Shown one piece after another: positions 1 to 25,204 of a stretch of DNA of 31,334 bases. The stretch comes from a virus. The notes beneath the pieces are model-generated. The model had not been told where the DNA came from. It worked only from the letters and a program-made list of their open reading frames with translations, and searched no databases. The position numbers and the translations under genes are program-made. Location: the IMG/VR virus record IMGVR_UViG_3300005338_000025, positions 1 to 31,334 of that record. One strand, 5' to 3'. Each line of letters opens with the position of its first letter. The first letter of the stretch is position 1.

Positions 1-22
1 CTGCGGCTCCTTGATGGGATGG

Positions 23-51
23 AGAATAGCAAACAAGTTTGCCGAGTGCAA
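23..51 (-). promoter_or_regulatory. Putative leftward early promoter (PL-like)
   Basis: On the minus strand a weak -35 TTGCAC (46-51) and a -10 TATTCT (23-28) are separated by 17 bp, and the first operator (29-42) fills the spacer. The rightward promoter at 1837-1865 has the same geometry. It would fire out of the left edge of the window, where a lambda-like phage would carry its leftward early operon. The match to sigma-70 consensus is modest. Confidence 0.45.
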
Positions 52-75
52 GCAAGTTTGCAAATATTTTTGCAA
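29..75. promoter_or_regulatory. OL-like repressor operator cluster
   Basis: Three adjacent dyad sites share the pattern GCAAA-N4-TTTGC. They are 29-42 (GCAAACAAGTTTGC), 48-61 (GCAAGCAAGTTTGC, one arm degenerate) and 60-73 (GCAAATATTTTTGC, extending to perfect 7-bp arms over 58-75). The same motif occurs three times next to the repressor gene at 1818-1879. By analogy with lambda OL/OR these are binding sites for the repressor and the Cro-like protein. The motif is seen directly; the binding proteins are inferred. Confidence 0.75.
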
Positions 76-86
76 GGTGGCAAAAT
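58..86 (+). promoter_or_regulatory. Putative rightward promoter for the 140-875 gene pair
   Basis: A -35 TTGCAA (58-63) and a -10 CAAAAT (81-86) are spaced by 17 bp, each matching 4 of 6 consensus bases. The -35 overlaps the third OL-like operator (58-75), so repressor would block it. It would give a leader of roughly 45 nt before the gene at 140. A short perfect palindrome CGCCTAGGCG lies in that leader. Confidence 0.4.
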
Positions 87-139
87 TGGGCTCATCGCAA
101 GGGCGGACTCGCCTAGGCGACTAACGTGAAAGGCGGCGG

Positions 140-583
140 ATGGACTTCGAGGCGGAAACGAAACGCTGCCCCACATGTGGGGAGCGCAAGCCAGTCGGGG
201 AGTTTTGGAGGAAGACCGGCAGCCCAGACGGGCGCCAGTGCCATTGCAAGGCGTGTCAGCGAGCGCAGCAGGCTGCTAGAAGCAAGACCGAGGGCTGGAA
301 GAGGGCCGCGAGCGAGTGGAGGAAGCGGAATCCCGGTAAGAAATACGCCTACAGAACGCCAGAAAGAGTTCGCGTCTACAACTTGAAATGGCGCACCGAC
401 AATCCCGACAAGTGGCGGGAGATTCAGCGCAAGCGGCAAGCGCGGGAGGCCTTGGAGCTAAGCGACAGATACGTTAAGGGGCGAGTCGCTCGTGGCCAAT
501 TCCCCACAACGATGGTCCCCGATGGCCTGATCGCGGCTAAGCGCGCTCAGTTGAAACTGCGCAGGCTCTTAAAGGAGAAGTGA
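140..583 (+). CDS. Small zinc-finger protein, HNH/endonuclease VII-like N-terminus
   Basis: A 147-residue basic protein. Its N-terminus has two CxxC knuckles, C10/C13 and C36/C39, around a K-P-x-x-x-F core and a DGR segment. Many phage HNH or recombination-endonuclease-VII-like proteins have this pattern. The remainder is Arg/Lys-rich and helical, and I see no clear catalytic HNH triad. ATG at 140 follows AAAGG by about 7 nt. It is the first gene after the OL-like operators and forms a pair with the next gene, running head-on into the repressor operon. Function is not established; it could be a DNA-binding accessory factor instead of a nuclease. Confidence 0.7.
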   Translation: MDFEAETKRCPTCGERKPVGEFWRKTGSPDGRQCHCKACQRAQQAARSKTEGWKRAASEWRKRNPGKKYAYRTPERVRVYNLKWRTDNPDKWREIQRKRQAREALELSDRYVKGRVARGQFPTTMVPDGLIAAKRAQLKLRRLLKEK

Positions 584-584
584 A

Positions 585-875
585 TTGAAGACGATCAAGA
601 ACATCGCCGATCTGAGCGAAGACTTGTGCCGCCTCTACGAAGACTTGCGGGGCGGGAAAATCGAGGCCAAAGAAGCCATAGAGGCGAACAACACGGCGGG
701 CAAGATTATCAGCGCAGCCAAAGTGCAATTGGCCTATCACGCGCTTCGCGGCGAACAGCCTAGCATCCCCTTTCTTGCCGCGCCAGTCGAGGAGAAGATT
801 GGTGGGGCAAGCGTCTTGCCAACGTTCCCGTCTGCGACCCAACTCACGCTCGGGGCTGCCGCCCGCAAGCGCTAG
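585..875 (+). CDS. Conserved-looking small phage protein, unknown function
   Basis: A 96-residue protein with a TTG start at 585, preceded by a good AAGGAG at 572-577. The first 60 residues are amphipathic helices with many acidic and basic residues (segments SEDLCRLYEDLRGGKIEAKE and NNTAGKIISAAKVQLAYHAL); the C-terminus is low in structure. I recall proteins of this look in many tailed phages near regulatory genes but know no function. It starts 1 nt after the upstream stop, so the two are probably co-translated. Its last 4 nt overlap the end of the convergent secreted-protein gene. Confidence 0.65.
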   Translation: MKTIKNIADLSEDLCRLYEDLRGGKIEAKEAIEANNTAGKIISAAKVQLAYHALRGEQPSIPFLAAPVEEKIGGASVLPTFPSATQLTLGAAARKR

Positions 876-1366
876 TCACAGTCCGTTTGCACCTGATTGC
901 CGACCCATCGGCTGCGGCAGGTTATTGGGAAACCGGGGTTCCGCAAAGGCTGAGGCGGCGGTTGCAACATCCGCATAATCTGCAGCGTGTTGTTCATCTG
1001 GATGGCTTGATTTTGCTGTCGTTCGGCCTGGTCAATTTGTTGGGCCTGCCTGACCCCGGTAGTAAGAGCGAGGTCAACGCGTCGATAGGCGTCATCGTAC
1101 TGCGGCTGGGTTATCGTCCCCGCCTCTAAAGCCCTCGCGTATGGAAGCATGTCGGAAAAGGCTTGCATCCAAAGCAGTTGAACCCTGCTGGGCGGCAGGG
1201 CACTTACCTTTCGGTATGCTTCCTCAAAGAACACAACGCGGCTGAGGCGCCCGGCGTTTGACTCGGCCACTCCCCAGCGATACCAATCGAAAAACGAGTC
1301 CACTAGCGGATCGGCCGCAGCCGAAAATGCGAGCACGAGGGCAAGCGCTGCAAGAAGTTTTTTCAT
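872..1366 (-). CDS. Secreted/periplasmic protein in the repressor operon
   Basis: A 164-residue protein with a clear signal peptide: KK at positions 2-3, a hydrophobic core to about residue 17, and probable cleavage after A-A-A before DPLVDSFF. The mature part is helical and Gln-rich and ends with two cysteines in TCRSRWVGNQVQTDC that could form a disulfide. The ATG overlaps the repressor stop (ATGA), so it is translated with the repressor in the lysogen. This is the place of rexA/rexB in lambda, so a lysogenic conversion or superinfection exclusion role is a reasonable inference. No catalytic motif is seen. Confidence 0.75.
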   Translation of the reverse strand: MKKLLAALALVLAFSAAADPLVDSFFDWYRWGVAESNAGRLSRVVFFEEAYRKVSALPPSRVQLLWMQAFSDMLPYARALEAGTITQPQYDDAYRRVDLALTTGVRQAQQIDQAERQQNQAIQMNNTLQIMRMLQPPPQPLRNPGFPITCRSRWVGNQVQTDCD

Positions 1367-1815
1367 GACGGTCCTCCTGTCTTGGTTTCTTGCCTGCGAA
1401 ACCTTTCTTCGAGAGCGCGTTGGGTCTCGGCGGCAATGTCCGCGTACTTGCGCACGGCGTTAAGAATTTCCTCTTTCGCGGCTCCCACCACAACAAGGGC
1501 GTTCAGCCCCCGCTCGATCAACTCATAAGGATCGGCCTCCCGCTCCTGTCGCAAGCGGTCGGAAAGAGGGCCTCCAATGGGCGGCGGCGTGCCGGACGGG
1601 TGACGTTTATTGCTCAGCCCGGCCTCGATCATCATTTCATCGACTGAAACGCCCATCGCCACGGCCAACTTGCCGATGTATCTGGGTATGCGGTTTTCGG
1701 CCGCCTCTAGCTGTTCGATGTTTTGGCGCCGCGTGCCGGCCCTTTTCGCCAGCTCCTTGGTGCTCATGTTGTTCAGCTTTCGGTAGTCGGAAACCTGCTG
1801 TCCGATGCTCCTCAT
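1363..1815 (-). CDS. XRE-family phage repressor (CI-like) without peptidase domain
   Basis: A 150-residue protein with an N-terminal HTH_3/XRE domain (about residues 5-60; helix-turn-helix around MSTKELAKRAGTRRQNIEQL and a second helix ending MGVSVDEMM). A Pro-rich linker (HPSGTPPPIGGP) and a helical C-terminus follow. It lacks the S24/LexA-like self-cleaving domain of lambda CI. I chose ATG 1815 because this start leaves all three OR-like operators (1818-1879) in the gap to the Cro-like gene. An upstream ATG at 1860 would put operators inside the coding region. No Shine-Dalgarno is visible at 1815, so translation may be leaderless as for lambda cI. It is co-transcribed with the secreted-protein gene. 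Confidence 0.85.
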   Translation of the reverse strand: MRSIGQQVSDYRKLNNMSTKELAKRAGTRRQNIEQLEAAENRIPRYIGKLAVAMGVSVDEMMIEAGLSNKRHPSGTPPPIGGPLSDRLRQEREADPYELIERGLNALVVVGAAKEEILNAVRKYADIAAETQRALEERFRRQETKTGGPS

Positions 1816-1817
1816 CA

Positions 1818-1879
1818 GCAAAGGATTTTGCGCCACTTGCGCGCAAACTAGATTGCGCATATCATGCAAACTACTTTGC
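1818..1879. promoter_or_regulatory. OR-like repressor operator cluster
   Basis: Three copies of the same dyad seen at 29-75: 1818-1831 (GCAAAGGATTTTGC), 1843-1856 (GCAAACTAGATTGC) and 1866-1879 (GCAAACTACTTTGC, extendable to TGCAAA/TTTGCA arms). Centres are 25 and 23 bp apart. They fill the gap between the divergent repressor (start 1815) and Cro-like gene (start 1894). The middle site sits in the spacer of the predicted rightward promoter. The arrangement is seen in sequence; occupancy order is unknown. Confidence 0.85.
1837..1865 (+). promoter_or_regulatory. Putative rightward early promoter (PR-like)
   Basis: A weak -35 TTGCGC (1837-1842), a 17-bp spacer and a good -10 TATCAT (1860-1865, 5 of 6 bases). 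The operator at 1843-1856 lies wholly in the spacer, the same geometry as the leftward promoter at the left edge. It would start transcription about 20 nt before the Cro-like ATG and drive the early operon towards the integrase. Confidence 0.55.
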
Positions 1880-1893
1880 AAGAAAGGCGCGAC

Positions 1894-2172
1894 ATGGCTG
1901 AGGTTTCCCCCGTCCAAAAGGCGGTCAATGTCTTCGACGGCAGCCCGACGAAGCTCGCCGCTGCTGTTGGGGATGGAATTCTCAGGCAGCACGTTGAACA
2001 CTGGCTGAAATCAGGCCGCGTCCCGGCTGAGCATTGCCCCGCCGTCTCTCGCGTCACGCGCATCCCACTGTGGGAGCTGCGCCCGGACGACTGGCACCGC
2101 GTCTGGCCGATGTTGATCGACACGCACGGCGCCCCGGCCGCGCCATCTCATTCCACTGAGGCGAAGGCGTAG
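1894..2172 (+). CDS. Cro-like protein, YdaS family
   Basis: A 92-residue HTH protein. The stretch SPTKLAAAVGDGILRQHVEH is the helix-turn-helix. The GRVPAEHCPAVSRVT and WELRPDDWHRVWP segments are the usual YdaS/Cro C-terminal hallmarks. It is divergent from the repressor across three shared operators, the position of cro. ATG 1894 is preceded by AGAAAGG at about 6 nt; an upstream in-frame ATG at 1866 lies in the operators and is less likely. As the first gene of the early operon it probably competes with the repressor for the GCAAA-N4-TTTGC sites to favour lytic growth. Confidence 0.88.
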   Translation: MAEVSPVQKAVNVFDGSPTKLAAAVGDGILRQHVEHWLKSGRVPAEHCPAVSRVTRIPLWELRPDDWHRVWPMLIDTHGAPAAPSHSTEAKA

Positions 2173-2927: not shown

Positions 2928-3347
2928 ATGACGGACGTTGCCGATCCCCAGCTACCGCTATCGCTTGCGCGCCCATCGGCCGCAGTCGATCCGCTGCTGA
3001 TTCAGGCGCAACCGACGCTGTTGGCCGCGATCAAGTTGTGCATCTCCATGGGCGGCTTCGAGGCCGACAAGGAGGTTTACAAGGCCCTGGACATTGACGC
3101 CGGCCACTGGTCGCGCATCTGCCGCGCGGAGGCCCACTTCCCGGTGGACAAGCTCGTCGCCCTGATGGACCTATGCGGCAACGAGGCGCCGCTCATGTGG
3201 CTCTTGTCGGCTCGCGGCTATGACCTGAGCGCACTTCGCAAGCGCGAGAGCGAAACCGAGAAGGCGCTGAGGTTGGAGCGCGAACGCAGCGCGAAGTTGC
3301 AGGAGCGCTTGAACTACGCCGAGTCACTCATTCAAGGGCGCGCGTGA
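2928..3347 (+). CDS. CII-like/HTH phage regulatory protein
   Basis: A 139-residue protein. Residues about 30-85 look like a helix-turn-helix fold (EVYKALDIDAGHWSRICRAE, then FPVDKLVALMDLCGNEAPL), and residues about 100-135 form a charged coiled coil (KRESETEKALRLERERSAKL). Position after cro and terminator and before replication genes is that of lambda cII. DNA-binding regulator is well supported; true CII-like activation of the repressor promoter is inference. The ATG at 2928 has only a weak AAAGAAAG ahead. It could also be a DNA-binding replication accessory protein. Confidence 0.7.
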   Translation: MTDVADPQLPLSLARPSAAVDPLLIQAQPTLLAAIKLCISMGGFEADKEVYKALDIDAGHWSRICRAEAHFPVDKLVALMDLCGNEAPLMWLLSARGYDLSALRKRESETEKALRLERERSAKLQERLNYAESLIQGRA

Positions 3348-9660: not shown

Positions 9661-9887
9661 CCCAGCCGCAGTACATCACCCTGCAGGCCTGGGCGGAAGA
9701 CCGCTACCCAGGGCGGGTGCCTCACCGCAACACTTTGCACCGCTGGGCGCAGAATGGCATGATCGTGCCCGCCCCGTTCAAGCGCGGCAATATCTACATG
9801 GTCACCCCTGCCGCCCGCCACATTGATGAACCAGCCCCGGGCGGCCGTCTGGTCGACCGCTTCCGCAATGGCCTCTCGCCCGCGTAG
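9657..9887 (+). CDS. xis: Excisionase (lambda Xis-like)
   Basis: A 76-residue winged-helix protein of typical Xis size. The segment YITLQAWAEDRYPGRVP is followed by HRNTLHRWAQNGMIVPAPF and a short beta wing (GNIYMV), matching MerR-like excisionases. It lies immediately upstream of, and overlaps by 20 nt, the integrase gene. It would bind attachment-site arms and direct integrase towards excision. Confidence 0.88.
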   Translation: MTQPQYITLQAWAEDRYPGRVPHRNTLHRWAQNGMIVPAPFKRGNIYMVTPAARHIDEPAPGGRLVDRFRNGLSPA

Positions 9888-11016
9888 CAACAAGCGCCGG
9901 GGCTGGCCGGACGGCCTGTACGAGCGGCGCGGGTACTTCACCTGGCGCAACCCCCTCACGGGCAAGGAAATGGGCATAGGCCGCGTGCCGCTGGGCGAAG
10001 CCAAGGCCCAAGCCGCCGAGGCGAACGTCGCCGTGCAGGGCCTGCAGGACAAGCCTCGGCTGGTCGATCGGCTGACCGGCAAGAGCGACACCAGCCTGCG
10101 CGCGTGGCTGGAGCGGTACGAGATCAAGCTCGGGCTGGTCAAGGGCGATGCGCCGGCCGACCGGGCGCTGGCCTACAACACGACGAAGACCTATCGCTCG
10201 GCCGTGAAGCTGATCCGAGAAACCTATGCCGACAGCCTGGATCTGCCGCTGGACCGGGTGACGACGTTCATCGTCGCCGCCGGCATCAACAAGGTGAAGG
10301 CGCGGGCGGCGCGCAGCGCGCAGGCCATGCGCTCACGGCTCACGGACATTTTCGACAGTGCGATTGCCGAAGGCTGGACCACCAGCAACCCCGTGCGCGT
10401 GACGAGCGACGTGTCCGTGACAGTGAAGCGCGCCCGGATGACGTGGGACGTGTTCAAGCGCCTTTACGACAGCCTGCCGGCCGGGCCGGTCAAGAATGCG
10501 ACTGCCCTTGCGCTGGTGTCCGGGCAACCGCGCGAGGTGATCGCCGGCGCCATGTTCACCGACGTCGGGATGGTCGAGCGCCCCGGCGCGGCGCCGGTGG
10601 AATGCTGGAAGTTCACCCGCGGCAAGACCGGCGCCATGATCGCGATCCCCCTGGACCTGCACCTCGAGGCGTTCGGCCTGAGCCTGCGCGACGTGGTGAA
10701 GCAGTGCCGCGCCACGAACGTCGCCAGCAAGTTCATGGTGCACAACAGCACCAGGCGCAAGGGCGCGAAGCTGGGGGGTCCGGTGGCGCTGAACCGACTC
10801 ACCAAGGATTTCACGGCCGCCGTGCTGGCGCTGAAAATCGACTGGGGCGATGCCGAGGCGCCGACCTTCCACGAGCTACGAAGCCTGTCCAAACGGCTCT
10901 ACGAGGCCCAGGGCGGCGTCAACACGCGCGACCTGCTGGGTCACAAGACCGAGCGCATGGGCGAGCTCTACGCGGACGCCCGCGGGGCCGAGTACAAGCT
11001 AGTCAGCCTCGGCTGA
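9868..11016 (+). CDS. int: Tyrosine-recombinase integrase
   Basis: A 382-residue lambda-type integrase from ATG 9868. An N-terminal arm-binding domain (about 8-60; WPDGLYERRGYFTWRNPLTG) is followed by a core-binding SAM-like domain (about 75-170) and the catalytic domain. Catalytic residues visible: R222, K253 in RGKTG, H335 and R338 in FHELRS, H359 in LLGHKT, and nucleophile Y368 in MGELYAD. It is the last gene of the early rightward operon, which differs from lambda where int is in the leftward operon. The downstream non-coding repeats probably hold attP. Confidence 0.95.
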   Translation: MASRPRSNKRRGWPDGLYERRGYFTWRNPLTGKEMGIGRVPLGEAKAQAAEANVAVQGLQDKPRLVDRLTGKSDTSLRAWLERYEIKLGLVKGDAPADRALAYNTTKTYRSAVKLIRETYADSLDLPLDRVTTFIVAAGINKVKARAARSAQAMRSRLTDIFDSAIAEGWTTSNPVRVTSDVSVTVKRARMTWDVFKRLYDSLPAGPVKNATALALVSGQPREVIAGAMFTDVGMVERPGAAPVECWKFTRGKTGAMIAIPLDLHLEAFGLSLRDVVKQCRATNVASKFMVHNSTRRKGAKLGGPVALNRLTKDFTAAVLALKIDWGDAEAPTFHELRSLSKRLYEAQGGVNTRDLLGHKTERMGELYADARGAEYKLVSLG

Positions 11017-20398: not shown

Positions 20399-20634
20399 CG
20401 ATGGAACTCGCGCTAATTGTTCTGCTCAGGCCAGTCCTGTACCTGGCCCTCTTCGCTGGCGTCATCTATTGGGTAATGCGTCTTGTGTGGAGGGTATTGC
20501 CTAGCGGGAAGACAAAGGAGCTTCTCTTCGATAAGACACTTCCGTTGCGCAGGCCATGGCTAACGACATTCGTGACCTGGGGCACATTCATCGCCCTGCT
20601 TCTCTTCATCGCCCTCATATCCGCAAATTCTTAA
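20395..20634 (+). CDS. Small inner-membrane protein, candidate superinfection exclusion
   Basis: A 79-residue protein with two hydrophobic helices (about 4-30, LALIVLLRPVLYLALFAGVI; about 54-78, FVTWGTFIALLLFIALI) joined by a basic loop (SGKTKELLFDKTLPLRR). ATG overlaps the RHH stop after a GAAAGGG. It runs against the ejection-protein gene and overlaps its end by 4 nt. Cotranscription with an Arc-like gene, opposite strand to late genes, and the SieA-like position support lysogen expression. Exclusion of related phages is inference. Confidence 0.6.
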   Translation: MTMELALIVLLRPVLYLALFAGVIYWVMRLVWRVLPSGKTKELLFDKTLPLRRPWLTTFVTWGTFIALLLFIALISANS

Positions 20635-22229
20635 TTTCCCTGCTGGACTCCAAGCAGACCAACTCCAACGGGGATTGGCAGACGGCCAAGTTCGGTTGTA
20701 AGGAGGCCAAGACGATTTTGCGGAGCTGTTAGCAGCATGCGGGCGGCGGCTGGCGACCCCAAGAGTCTTTGCGCACCTACAGCAGTACCCATGCCAATCG
20801 CCGTCGGCACAAGTGTCCCCGTGGCTATCCCGGCGCCCAAGCCGCCGGCGCCAGTGAGCGCGCCTACGCCAGCGTTTTGCATTAGTGCGCGGACGCTGCC
20901 GCCAGTCTGCGGAGTCCTATCTACAAGGAACCTGCCCCCGATTTGGGATAGATCCGCAAACGGGGATTGGGATACTCTGTTTCCGTATTGACTTACCACT
21001 TGCGCCGGGAGCAGGGCGGCAGGAACGTCCCCAGACACGCGCCCGGCAACGCCGGCCTCTGCCTTATTCATCAACGGCTCGATTGCCTTGAAGGCCGCGT
21101 ACTGCCCTCTAGCCGTGGTCAGCGCCTGTGCGTCAGGTCCAGTTACGCTGCGATTGAACGTGTCAATCGCCGACTTGCGAAGTTGGCTCAGGATCGATTG
21201 ATGCAAGCCCTTCTCGCCTTCGGCCGCCAGCCTCAACTCAGATTGCCAGTTGTTGACGAACGAGCCTGGAACCTCTCCATTGGGGCCAACCTTTTGCAGA
21301 AGGTTTTGCACTTGGCGGTTTACCGCTTGCGCCTGCTCCGGGTTAAGGTTTGTTGCGCGTTGCTGTATCGCCTGGAGATCGGAAACAAACTTCCCGTCGA
21401 TCTTGAGGTCATTGCTGTTCCAAATGCGGTCCAACTCTTGCCCGATTCGGCCCTTGGCGTTGTCCATCACGGCCGCCGTTAGCTTCGGCTCATTGCTGCC
21501 GAACGTGTTCCCAACAGCGCGGTTAAACCCCTGCTGCACCGCCTCTTTGTCAGAGGCCCCCATAGCGCCAGTGATCGGCAGGTCGTTTAGGATGCTGCGA
21601 AGGCCCTTCACCGTCTTGCTGTCGGCAATATCAGCGGGGCCAAGCGGAATCCCGTACTGTTGAATTGCCTTTTGAGCAAGGGTGGTGTCTTGTGGGGTGG
21701 AAAGGACGCGCGCGCCTTGTACGACGGCCGGAAGCGCAGCGCCAGCAGCGCCGCCGATGGCAACGTTGGCCGCCCTGCTTTCGCCCGTTCCGACCGGTTG
21801 CAACGCCCCGGTCCCGGCGCCAACTGCCAACCCCTCAAGAACTGGCGCAGCCCGACCAAGCGCCCCGGCCCAGCCCATCGGAATCGCAAGCGTCGGCAAA
21901 ACATTCCCCGCAAAGTTGAGCGCTTTGCCCGTGAACGTGTCGTTCAGTTGCGCGTTGCGTTTGCGCATTTCGTCAACTGCCTGCGCAGAATTGTTCTCTG
22001 AGGGGGCTACAAGCTGACTGCCACCAACTACCAAGTCGTTGAACCCCGAGCCGAGCTGAGCCAGCCCTTTATTAATGGCTTGCGGCAGCGGGATTCCCGT
22101 ATCGATCGGCCCAAAGCGCAGGTTTCCACTGAAGTCAGTGACCGGCGCCGGTTTTTCAGGCTCTGCTAGTGGTGCGCTTTGCCATCCGGTCGCGCCGCCA
22201 CTCACAACCGGGGCGTCTTGCCATCCCAT
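20631..22229 (-). CDS. Large internal virion/DNA-ejection protein
   Basis: A 532-residue protein. It has a Pro/Gly N-terminus and two Gly/Ala-rich helices that look like glycine zippers (GAGTGALQPVGTG... and VGALTGAGGLGAGIATGTL). The middle is alpha-helical (about 200-370; VSDLQAIQQRATNLNPEQAQ). Such proteins are ejected with the DNA to form a channel across the envelope (compare P22 gp16/gp20). It is downstream of the 601-residue gene (TAATG overlap). No lytic transglycosylase motif seen. Confidence 0.7.
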   Translation of the reverse strand: MGWQDAPVVSGGATGWQSAPLAEPEKPAPVTDFSGNLRFGPIDTGIPLPQAINKGLAQLGSGFNDLVVGGSQLVAPSENNSAQAVDEMRKRNAQLNDTFTGKALNFAGNVLPTLAIPMGWAGALGRAAPVLEGLAVGAGTGALQPVGTGESRAANVAIGGAAGAALPAVVQGARVLSTPQDTTLAQKAIQQYGIPLGPADIADSKTVKGLRSILNDLPITGAMGASDKEAVQQGFNRAVGNTFGSNEPKLTAAVMDNAKGRIGQELDRIWNSNDLKIDGKFVSDLQAIQQRATNLNPEQAQAVNRQVQNLLQKVGPNGEVPGSFVNNWQSELRLAAEGEKGLHQSILSQLRKSAIDTFNRSVTGPDAQALTTARGQYAAFKAIEPLMNKAEAGVAGRVSGDVPAALLPAQVVSQYGNRVSQSPFADLSQIGGRFLVDRTPQTGGSVRALMQNAGVGALTGAGGLGAGIATGTLVPTAIGMGTAVGAQRLLGSPAAARMLLTAPQNRLGLLTTELGRLPIPVGVGLLGVQQGN

Positions 22230-24034
22230 TACGGCTTCCTCCGGCTCTTGCCGTCAGGCCCTGTAAATAGGGTGCCTGGCGGGAGGGCGTTGTATTCGGC
22301 GTCGGAGCTAATCGTCGTTGCGCCGCCCTGGGGGCGCGCTGGCGGGGTGATTTCGCCGAGCATGCTTTGCCCACCATTGCCGGTTGCACTCTTGGAGAGC
22401 CCGTTGTAATTGCTAATGTCGCGAAAGTTTGCCTCCTCGGCTTTGTCGAGAAGGAACTTGATGGCGTTTGCCTCTTGCCCGCGAGTGCCGAACATCTGAC
22501 GAACGAAATTCACGTCGCTGTTGGAGATATTTTGCGATCCGACAATCGACTTGATGTTCTTCCCGGCGATTTGCGCGAGAGTGGCGTCAAACGTCTGGGA
22601 GTTGGCGACGGAATCAGGCACCGGGATTCCAAGTGCGCTGAGTGAGCGAACAAGATTCAACTTGGTATCTGCGCCCATCCCATTGAACGTGCCGGCCTTC
22701 AAGATGTCTTTCGCGTTCCAGATCGCCGGCAGCGCCTGTTTTGCCGACAACGCCTTCGTCATCGCGTCGTCAACTTGGGATGCATTCTTTTCTCCGAGCG
22801 ACTTATTGAACTGATCTTGCGCGGTGGTCGGGCCGCTGACAAAGCCATCCGCCGAAATCCCGGCCGTCTTCATTTGCCTGGTGAGGGAATCAATGTCTCC
22901 TTGGGCGCGCTGTTTTTCTTCGGGCGTGGCCGCAGTCGAATAGGCGGAAACCGCACGTTTCAACTCGCCTTGCAAAATTGTCGGGTCCGGAGCAGTAATA
23001 GCCTGCTTGCGCGCCAACGGATCGGCGTTGAACTGCTGCCTGTCGAGCATAGGCCCGGGCCGCTGAGTGCCTTGTGGGCCCAATTGGGGCGCTGTTTGCG
23101 GCGTCGGCTGGACGGGGGTGGATTGCGGCGCGGTAGCGCCAAAGACTCCTGGAAACAAGGTGCTCAGCGAGCCCAATGCGCCAGACTTGTCCAGCGCTTG
23201 CAGGTTTGACATCGTGACAGTTTGTCCGGCCGCGTTCTTTATGTCTTTGGGCGTCAGTGCCGCGTCGATCAACTTCGGAACGCCAGAGCTAATAACCGTA
23301 TTCTGGAGTTGCAGCTCGTTAGCACCCGCCGGGGACACGACTCTGTAGCCGTTCGGAGCGGTGGCGTCTTTGACGATTTGATAGCCCTGCCCCGTAGGCG
23401 ACATTTGCGGAATAGACTCGCCGTTTTGGACCTTGTTCTTGTCCATCCAGACGCCGTTTACGTTTTGCATGTCGGGCGTGGAGCGCTTGAACATCCATTC
23501 CGGGATATTCTTGCCGTCGTTGAACGCGAGGTCTGCATAAACAGCGTTCGGATCAACACCGGCCATGGGGTTGCCCGCAGTCGCCTTACCGATCTCCTGC
23601 GCTTGCAATGCGGCGTTTGCCGTCGTCGGAGCCAGGTTGCCGGTTTGGTCGATTACGGCCTGATTCGCGGCGCTTGGCGCGGCCTTCAATTGGCCCATCC
23701 AGCCGTTAATCATGTCGTTGCGACGGGCGAGTTGCGCGGCTTGCTGTTTTCGCATCTCAATCTGCTGCAAAACATCTTGGTATTGCGCGCTCATGAGGCC
23801 GCGCTTCAATTGCGCTTCTGGGCTCATCAATTGAGCGTAGGCATTCAGGCCGCCCGCGAGGTTCCCAGAGATCATCCCGGCCGCAAGCGCCATCGTTGCC
23901 GCAGATTTGGGGTCATTTGGCCCTTGCCCAAGCAAGCCGGGTGAGCTATCGCCTCCAAACTGCGCGCCCCCAAGTAGCCCACCGAGCAAGCCGAGATTTC
24001 CGCCGCCCTGGTCGAGTAGTGAAGTGGTCGCCAT
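22229..24034 (-). CDS. Large internal virion/DNA-ejection protein
   Basis: A 601-residue protein. The N-terminus is Gly/Leu-rich (GGGNLGLLGGLLGGAQFGG) with a possible membrane-active helix to about 75, then Gln-rich helices (LQQIEMRKQQAAQLARRNDM). A Pro/Gln linker near residues 305-330 (TPVQPTPQTAPQLGPQ) separates a helical C-terminal region. It is adjacent to two other internal proteins, and composition fits phage ejection proteins. Exact role inferred from context. Confidence 0.65.
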   Translation of the reverse strand: MATTSLLDQGGGNLGLLGGLLGGAQFGGDSSPGLLGQGPNDPKSAATMALAAGMISGNLAGGLNAYAQLMSPEAQLKRGLMSAQYQDVLQQIEMRKQQAAQLARRNDMINGWMGQLKAAPSAANQAVIDQTGNLAPTTANAALQAQEIGKATAGNPMAGVDPNAVYADLAFNDGKNIPEWMFKRSTPDMQNVNGVWMDKNKVQNGESIPQMSPTGQGYQIVKDATAPNGYRVVSPAGANELQLQNTVISSGVPKLIDAALTPKDIKNAAGQTVTMSNLQALDKSGALGSLSTLFPGVFGATAPQSTPVQPTPQTAPQLGPQGTQRPGPMLDRQQFNADPLARKQAITAPDPTILQGELKRAVSAYSTAATPEEKQRAQGDIDSLTRQMKTAGISADGFVSGPTTAQDQFNKSLGEKNASQVDDAMTKALSAKQALPAIWNAKDILKAGTFNGMGADTKLNLVRSLSALGIPVPDSVANSQTFDATLAQIAGKNIKSIVGSQNISNSDVNFVRQMFGTRGQEANAIKFLLDKAEEANFRDISNYNGLSKSATGNGGQSMLGEITPPARPQGGATTISSDAEYNALPPGTLFTGPDGKSRRKP

Positions 24035-24037
24035 GGC

Positions 24038-25204
24038 TTACCTCGTCCCCGTCCAATAATTGTAAAGTTGACTGCCTCCGAGCAATCCTCCGACCGTGCC
24101 CAATGCGCCGCCGCCCGCGTTCTGGTTGCTGGTCTCTTGCCCCCCCAAGCCGGTGTAACGCGAGTAGATGTTGCTCGCGTCCGTTAGGGTGTTCCACGGG
24201 CCCTGCGTGCCGGCGCCATAGAGTTGCGCGCCCAATGCGGTCTGTGCGAGGTCGCCCTGGCGCTGCGAGGTGTAGAAGTCCTGCATGTTGCGCTGGTTAC
24301 CCAGAGCCAACCCGCCGAGGCCGAGGTTGTATTGGTTCGCCCCGTTCCAGTAGTTGTAGCCAAGCTGCCCCTGGTTCGCATTGAAGCTCTGATCGCCCTG
24401 GTATTGCCGCAGGTTGCGCTCCATCTGCGCCTGATAATCCTGCGCGTTGTTCCCCGCGAGCGCCGCCGCAAGGCCCTGATTCGACTGCGCGATTCCCAGC
24501 CCCTGCGCGATGCCTTCACGCGAGCCGCCGACGCCGCCAACCGAGTCCGCGTGCCGACGAATGCCCGGCAGGATGTTTTGTTGGAGGTTGTTGTCGAACT
24601 GGGTTTGCGTGGCCTGGTTCAGCGCGTCCAGCGCGGGGCTGCGCGTGTAGGCCGTCAGGCTCGCGGGCGTGATGTAGCCGCCGTTTTGATTGGCCGGCAG
24701 ATACTGCGAGCTGGCGCCGGGCGAGCCGATGCCGCCGATGCCGTTGAAATTCCAGCCGCCTCCGCCACTGCCGCCAGTCACGCCGCCGCCACCGGTTCCG
24801 CAGCCCGACGTGCCGCCTCCAGAAGTGCCGCCGCCGCTGTAGCCGTTGTAGTTCAGCGAGCCATCCGAGTTGACAATGCCGTGTTGCTGGTCGGCGTTGT
24901 CGATCTGCGAGTAGATCCCCGAAAACTCGTTATTGCCGCCCTGCTGCGCGTAGTTCTGGATGCCGGCCGCAGTCGTCCCGCCGAGAATTTGCGATAGCTG
25001 ATCCGGCGTGAAGCCCATCTGCTGGGCCTTGCCGAGAATCTGATCGTTGACGAGCGTGTTGTTCGGATCGAAGTTGAAATTGCCGCTGCTGTCGATCAGC
25101 GGATTCAGGCTCGCGTTCCACTGCCCATTGGCGTCATAGCCCCCGCCATAGTTGTTGTTGATGTATTGCTGGTAGGCGGAGATTTGGGAGGGGTCGAAGG
25201 CCAT
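24038..25204 (-). CDS. Gly/Gln/Asn-rich internal virion protein
   Basis: A 388-residue protein with GGAG upstream of ATG 25204. It is rich in Gly, Asn, Gln and Tyr. A Gly-rich run lies at about 125-155 (GGGTSGGGTSGCGTGGGG), and helical Gln-rich segments (SREGIAQGLGIAQSNQGLAA; AQMERNLRQYQGDQ) follow. The C-terminus is GGLLGGSQLYNYWTG. Position with the other ejection genes suggests a DNA-ejection component; family not recognised. Confidence 0.6.
   Translation of the reverse strand: MAFDPSQISAYQQYINNNYGGGYDANGQWNASLNPLIDSSGNFNFDPNNTLVNDQILGKAQQMGFTPDQLSQILGGTTAAGIQNYAQQGGNNEFSGIYSQIDNADQQHGIVNSDGSLNYNGYSGGGTSGGGTSGCGTGGGGVTGGSGGGGWNFNGIGGIGSPGASSQYLPANQNGGYITPASLTAYTRSPALDALNQATQTQFDNNLQQNILPGIRRHADSVGGVGGSREGIAQGLGIAQSNQGLAAALAGNNAQDYQAQMERNLRQYQGDQSFNANQGQLGYNYWNGANQYNLGLGGLALGNQRNMQDFYTSQRQGDLAQTALGAQLYGAGTQGPWNTLTDASNIYSRYTGLGGQETSNQNAGGGALGTVGGLLGGSQLYNYWTGTR

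Follow-up and report, generated by a model that had tools for sequence, protein, structure and literature searches.

The window, which is the whole 31,334-nucleotide stretch of viral DNA that was analysed, carries at its left end a repressor gene, a divergently oriented gene for a Cro-like protein, and two clusters of short inverted repeats (dyads) that coincide with predicted promoters. The features of this region are listed below, with the dyads and promoters named after their predicted roles.

23-51, minus strand: PL-like promoter, -35 TTGCAC (51-46), 17-bp spacer, -10 TATTCT (28-23), exiting at the left end of the record
29-42: OL1, exact dyad GCAAACAAGTTTGC, within the PL spacer
48-61: middle OL dyad, GCAAG...TTTGC, one mismatch, left arm overlapping the PL -35
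60-73: distal OL dyad, exact, overlapping the middle dyad by 2 bp
140-583, plus strand: endonuclease VII/HNH-like gene between the clusters (phrog_2340, E = 3.5e-10)
585-875, plus strand: small gene between the clusters, no family match
872-1366, minus strand: second gene of the repressor operon, 164 aa, signal-peptide-like N-terminus
1363-1815, minus strand: repressor (CI role), 150 aa, HTH_3, 434-like helix-turn-helix (HTH), without S24 peptidase
1818-1831: OR3, exact dyad GCAAAGGATTTTGC, right arm reading CAAAAT when reversed
1837-1865, plus strand: PR, -35 TTGCGC, 17-bp spacer, -10 TATCAT
1843-1856: OR2, GCAAA...ATTGC, one mismatch, within the PR spacer
1866-1879: OR1, exact dyad, immediately 3' of the PR -10
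1894-2172, plus strand: YdaS-family Cro-like protein, 92 aa (PF15943, E = 2.4e-12)

An earlier note on this DNA described six GCAAA-N4-TTTGC dyads. All six are in place, but only four of them are exact, the dyads at 48-61 and 1843-1856 each departing from the pattern at one base. The exact pattern occurs four times in the whole record, every time inside the two clusters; in 300 dinucleotide shuffles of the record it averaged 0.09 copies and never exceeded one. None of the 300 shuffles contained at least three sites (with at most one mismatch) within 50 bp. One-mismatch copies outside the clusters, at 2882, 15805 and 21296, are near chance level. The full-genome scan suggested in the note also bore out the rarity of the motif: since three prophage-bearing bacterial genomes of 2.7-6.8 Mb contain only 6-9 exact dyads each, three of them in the immunity region, the motif is not common elsewhere. 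The dyads at 48-61 and 60-73 have two bases in common, so that simultaneous filling of both may be impossible.

The N-terminal domain of the repressor has the 434 repressor as its best solved relative (E = 3e-8), and the predicted model gives a confident 434-like HTH, followed by a less certain C-terminal helix (112-146). The C-terminal S24 peptidase domain that characterizes LexA/S24-type CI proteins is absent. The Cro-like protein matches PF15943 with 46.9 bits (gathering cutoff 30), and together with its relatives it gives a profile that matches 3bd1, a solved protein whose deposited name is 'Cro protein'; the AlphaFold model of the Cro-like protein (mean pLDDT 53) was too poor for use. The repressor and Cro-like genes are divergent and 78 bp apart, with three dyads in the gap, and the second cluster lies beyond the repressor operon on the outward-reading PL. 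The repressor operon, read leftward from 1815 to 872, is thus located between the clusters as the note had it, but not alone, because the rightward genes 140-583 and 585-875 are found there too. The 872-1366 product is possibly a surface or exclusion protein produced in the lysogen.

Beyond the immunity region, an integrase gene (9823-11016) is found about 8 kb past the Cro-like gene, in the rightward (PR) direction; in lambda it belongs to the PL operon. Replication genes are located further right of the clusters in the same region. Large minus-strand genes at 20631-25204, two of them matching DNA-ejection proteins, adjoin head and tail genes, which indicates that the record is a tailed phage.

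The arrangement recurs in 17 further loci, found via the Cro-like protein or the right cluster only, which together with the window make a set of 18. As the sole query, the Cro-like protein recovered five IMG/VR loci (L005-L009); as the sole bait, the OR3-OR2 pattern recovered nine more IMG/VR records and three Comamonadaceae genomes (two Polaromonas, one Acidovorax). With the repressor protein, no IMG/VR relatives were recovered. In the five loci found with the Cro-like protein, three dyads lie between the repressor and Cro genes, spaced by 25 and 23-24 bp, and two or three further dyads lie 1.0-2.6 kb beyond. Left sites, which were absent from the bait, are present in all 12 loci found with the OR pattern, as a single site in two of them. 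Across the loci, the right cluster consists of three sites with near-fixed spacing (25-26 and 23-24 bp), while the distance between the left and right clusters in the 17 loci ranges from 0.4 to 3.1 kb. OR1 is exact in 18/18 loci, and so is the OL1 dyad at the corresponding place; another dyad 31-34 bp from OL1 is present in 14/18. At least two left dyads (with at most one mismatch) occur in 16 of the 18 loci, the two Polaromonas loci having one. OR2 departs from the exact pattern in 13/18, and the deviating position is almost always one that the bait left free. Exact dyads number 24 on the repressor side (51.7 kb) versus none on the Cro side (41.3 kb).

The repressors of these loci keep the DNA-binding half and the operators, while their C-terminal halves swap between S24 domains and short, apparently helical modules; eight of the 17 repressors sharing these operators carry the S24 peptidase domain, the window's not among them. 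In one locus (L024, G006:C1:1-3500), the repressor frame is only about 67 aa long, stopping near helix 3, and no more than about 400 bp separate OL from OR; the locus reads as a broken or deleted immunity region that has retained both operator clusters. Two candidates were set aside: a Tyzzerella locus (L036), a chance match to the OR pattern that has neither OR1 nor a repressor/Cro pair, and Acidovorax phage AP1, which has a different dyad and is alone among named phages in having a similar Cro-like protein. Screening 401 genomes of the Polaromonas family added no close member to the set. It gave 23 YdaS matches of lower strength, and several of these are accompanied by other dyads. Among the papers listed in literature searches on the half-sites and on Comamonadaceae, none describes a GCAAA-N4-TTTGC operator.

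Short repeats with replication genes further right in the same region could also be replication iterons, or chance repeats in AT-rich DNA. The inverted symmetry of the dyads, their position on promoters and between divergent repressor and Cro genes, their conservation in 18 loci, each time at two distinct places, and the rarity of copies in the shuffles make this reading extremely improbable.

As the note had observed, each cluster has one site within a 17-bp promoter spacer, namely 1843-1856 in PR and 29-42 in PL. Both are weak promoters by consensus match (PR 8/12, PL 7/12), and a generic promoter scan listed neither of them; they are called because the arrangement is conserved across loci. 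It recurs in most relatives, in which the PL -10 is usually CATAAT-like, and the leftward PL-like promoter overlaps OL1 in most of the loci. In many relatives, the middle OL dyad is incomplete, and what is left is mainly the GCAAG/GCAAT arm that coincides with the PL -35. This IMG/VR record has 28 bases ahead of the first dyad, so that the genes PL would transcribe are not included in it.

For the promoter of the repressor gene (PRM), the CAAAAT formed by the reversed right arm of OR3 is the likely -10. This arm (ATTTTGC) is present in 6/6 loci not selected for it, namely the window and L005-L009. With this -10 the repressor mRNA would be near-leaderless, a type for which paaR2 and lambda cI offer precedents (PMC8630535). 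In all 17 loci whose repressor is intact, 1-3 bp separate its start codon from OR3 (3 bp in the window, ATG at 1815); lambda has about 10 bp at this place, and 434 has 32 bp (annotated phage record). As the mRNA must begin at or before the start codon, OR2 can be about 34.5 bp upstream of it at the most, which is too near for the PRM-activating distance of -42 in lambda, provided that this start codon is correct. Such activation by CI, from an OR2 whose centre is at about -42 relative to the PRM start, is found in lambda and 434 but is not common to all lambdoid switches.

The nearest known system in layout is phage 434 (OL657226). It shares with the window 14-bp operators, the order OR3, PR -35, OR2 in the spacer, -10 and OR1, and an OL1 located at the PL -10. 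A register of promoters and operators unlike known phages had been considered and was dropped, because annotated phage 434 has the same order. Phage 434 differs in the spacing of its OL dyads (23 and 31 bp; 19 and 12 bp in the window), in the repressor start distance given above, and in its Cro, which is not of the YdaS family; the window's repressor, for its part, has no S24 domain. Lambda (J02459) is alike in that two clusters of three sites flank the repressor operon, with PL and PR directed outward. In contrast, its operators are 17 bp long and of another sequence, OR1 rather than OR2 lies in the PR spacer, no rightward genes occur between the clusters, and its CI has a peptidase/oligomerisation domain.

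Among studied systems with a YdaS Cro, prophage CP-933P of E. coli O157:H7 is the nearest. It likewise uses YdaS as Cro and a CI-role repressor, PaaR2, without peptidase, and has operators at OR and OL and the promoters PL, PR and PRM; the PaaR2 and YdaS footprints overlap, and both proteins repress PL933P (PMC8630535). The CP-933P repressor gene is leaderless, as the window's would nearly be, whereas the operator consensus (GTTTAGTAA) differs, and a toxin-antitoxin pair follows the repressor (PMC8630535); no paaA2-parE2 genes were seen in the window. A counterpart of YdaT, the third protein of the PaaR2-YdaS-YdaT set, was not identified in the window, where 2928-3347 gave only weak CII-like matches. 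The RacR/YdaS pair of the Rac prophage is similar in that three inverted repeats separate the repressor gene from a divergent ydaS; the repeat there is GCCTAA/TTAGGC, and a left cluster is not described in the parts of that report considered here (PMC5700373).

Helix 3 of the repressor begins with Arg-Gln in 17/17 intact repressors, and the same pair begins helix 3 of the Cro-like protein in 17 of 18 cases, the exception being L026, in which the operators are nonetheless unchanged. In 434, CI and Cro likewise share the start of helix 3, which is Gln-Gln, and the operators are ACAA-N6-TTGT; Klebsiella phage RCIP0034 also combines Gln-Gln in repressor and Cro with ACAA-N6-TTGT operators. The dyads of the window do not have the ACAA half-site of the 434 class, but GCAA(A), with equal length (14 bp) and layout. 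Gln28 of the 434 repressor reportedly contacts operator base 1 (the 434 work of Wharton and Ptashne; structure 2OR1). The one-base change of the half-site from ACAA to GCAA matches the Gln-to-Arg change in repressor helix 3. YdaS/repressor pairs that are more distant but belong to the same family of bacteria have other dyads, as expected for separate immunity groups. A distant pair, L048, has ACAAA-N4-TTTGT-like dyads and the helix 3 sequence KPQAVQYL, and counts as another point for the link between helix 3 and base 1.

Because the Arg-Gln pair at the start of helix 3 is shared, and Gln-Gln goes with ACAA in 434, we infer that the repressor and the Cro-like protein both bind the dyads. That only the repressor does so, the YdaS-like protein acting elsewhere or as a toxin, seems improbable. 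PF15943 is indeed named as a toxin family, and the L026 protein lacks the Arg-Gln pair, but the pair is otherwise common to the repressors and the Cro-like proteins, the Cro-like family matches a solved Cro (3bd1), and in CP-933P YdaS footprints on the region of PaaR2 and represses PRM and PL (PMC8630535).

Taken together, the dyads are very probably the 14-bp operators of a lambda/434-type lysogeny switch, with both proteins as predicted binders. The proposal of a lambda-like immunity region with operators at either end has strong support: the sites are conserved in 17 more loci and overlap promoters, and the layout matches that of 434. In this switch, the 434-like repressor and the YdaS-family Cro-like protein would compete for OR3-OR2-OR1, the repressor closing PR and the Cro-like protein closing the repressor promoter, while the OL sites would let both proteins close the leftward PL. 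Repressor oligomers may additionally bridge OL and OR.

The note predicted that the repressor would form a long-range loop over about 1.8 kb. In lambda, the C-terminal S24 domain of CI oligomerises, and looping between OL and OR is established. The window's repressor is without this S24/oligomerisation domain, which counts against looping; bridging nevertheless stays plausible, though only that and at slightly less than an even chance, because the peptidase-less PaaR2 of CP-933P was reported to octamerise (PMC8630535). The rival to this step, and to this step only, is that the left cluster is the operator of an independent leftward promoter and the clusters are read separately, without a loop, for which we put the chances at about half. 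The OL-OR spacing of 0.4-3.1 kb shows no helical phasing (OL1-OR1 0.45 to 3.2 kb), PL overlaps OL1 in most loci, and OL is kept by repressors with and without the S24 domain, all of which favour separate reading. Against it stand the octamers of PaaR2 and lambda itself, which has the same two-cluster layout and loops.

Dual-operator immunity of the lambda/434 kind is already well known; here it occurs with a YdaS-family Cro, GCAA operators and 17 relatives. We tentatively suggest, with somewhat less confidence than for bridging, that these loci make up an immunity group, its named members belonging to Comamonadaceae, and that two different HTH families maintain its single operator code, GCAAA-N4-TTTGC, by means of a shared Arg-Gln pair. 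The C-terminal half of the repressor would be swapped between S24 and small helical modules, hence SOS-inducible and SOS-blind forms, and the repressor would be unable to activate its own promoter in the lambda manner. The set offers 18 naturally varied switches sharing one operator code. It makes testable whether repressor residue 28 (Gln in 434, Arg here) sets operator base 1 in nature, whether the S24 domain is needed for OL-OR looping, and how the repressor sustains its own expression with OR2 so near PRM. The operator pattern is also a usable signature for prophages of this immunity group.
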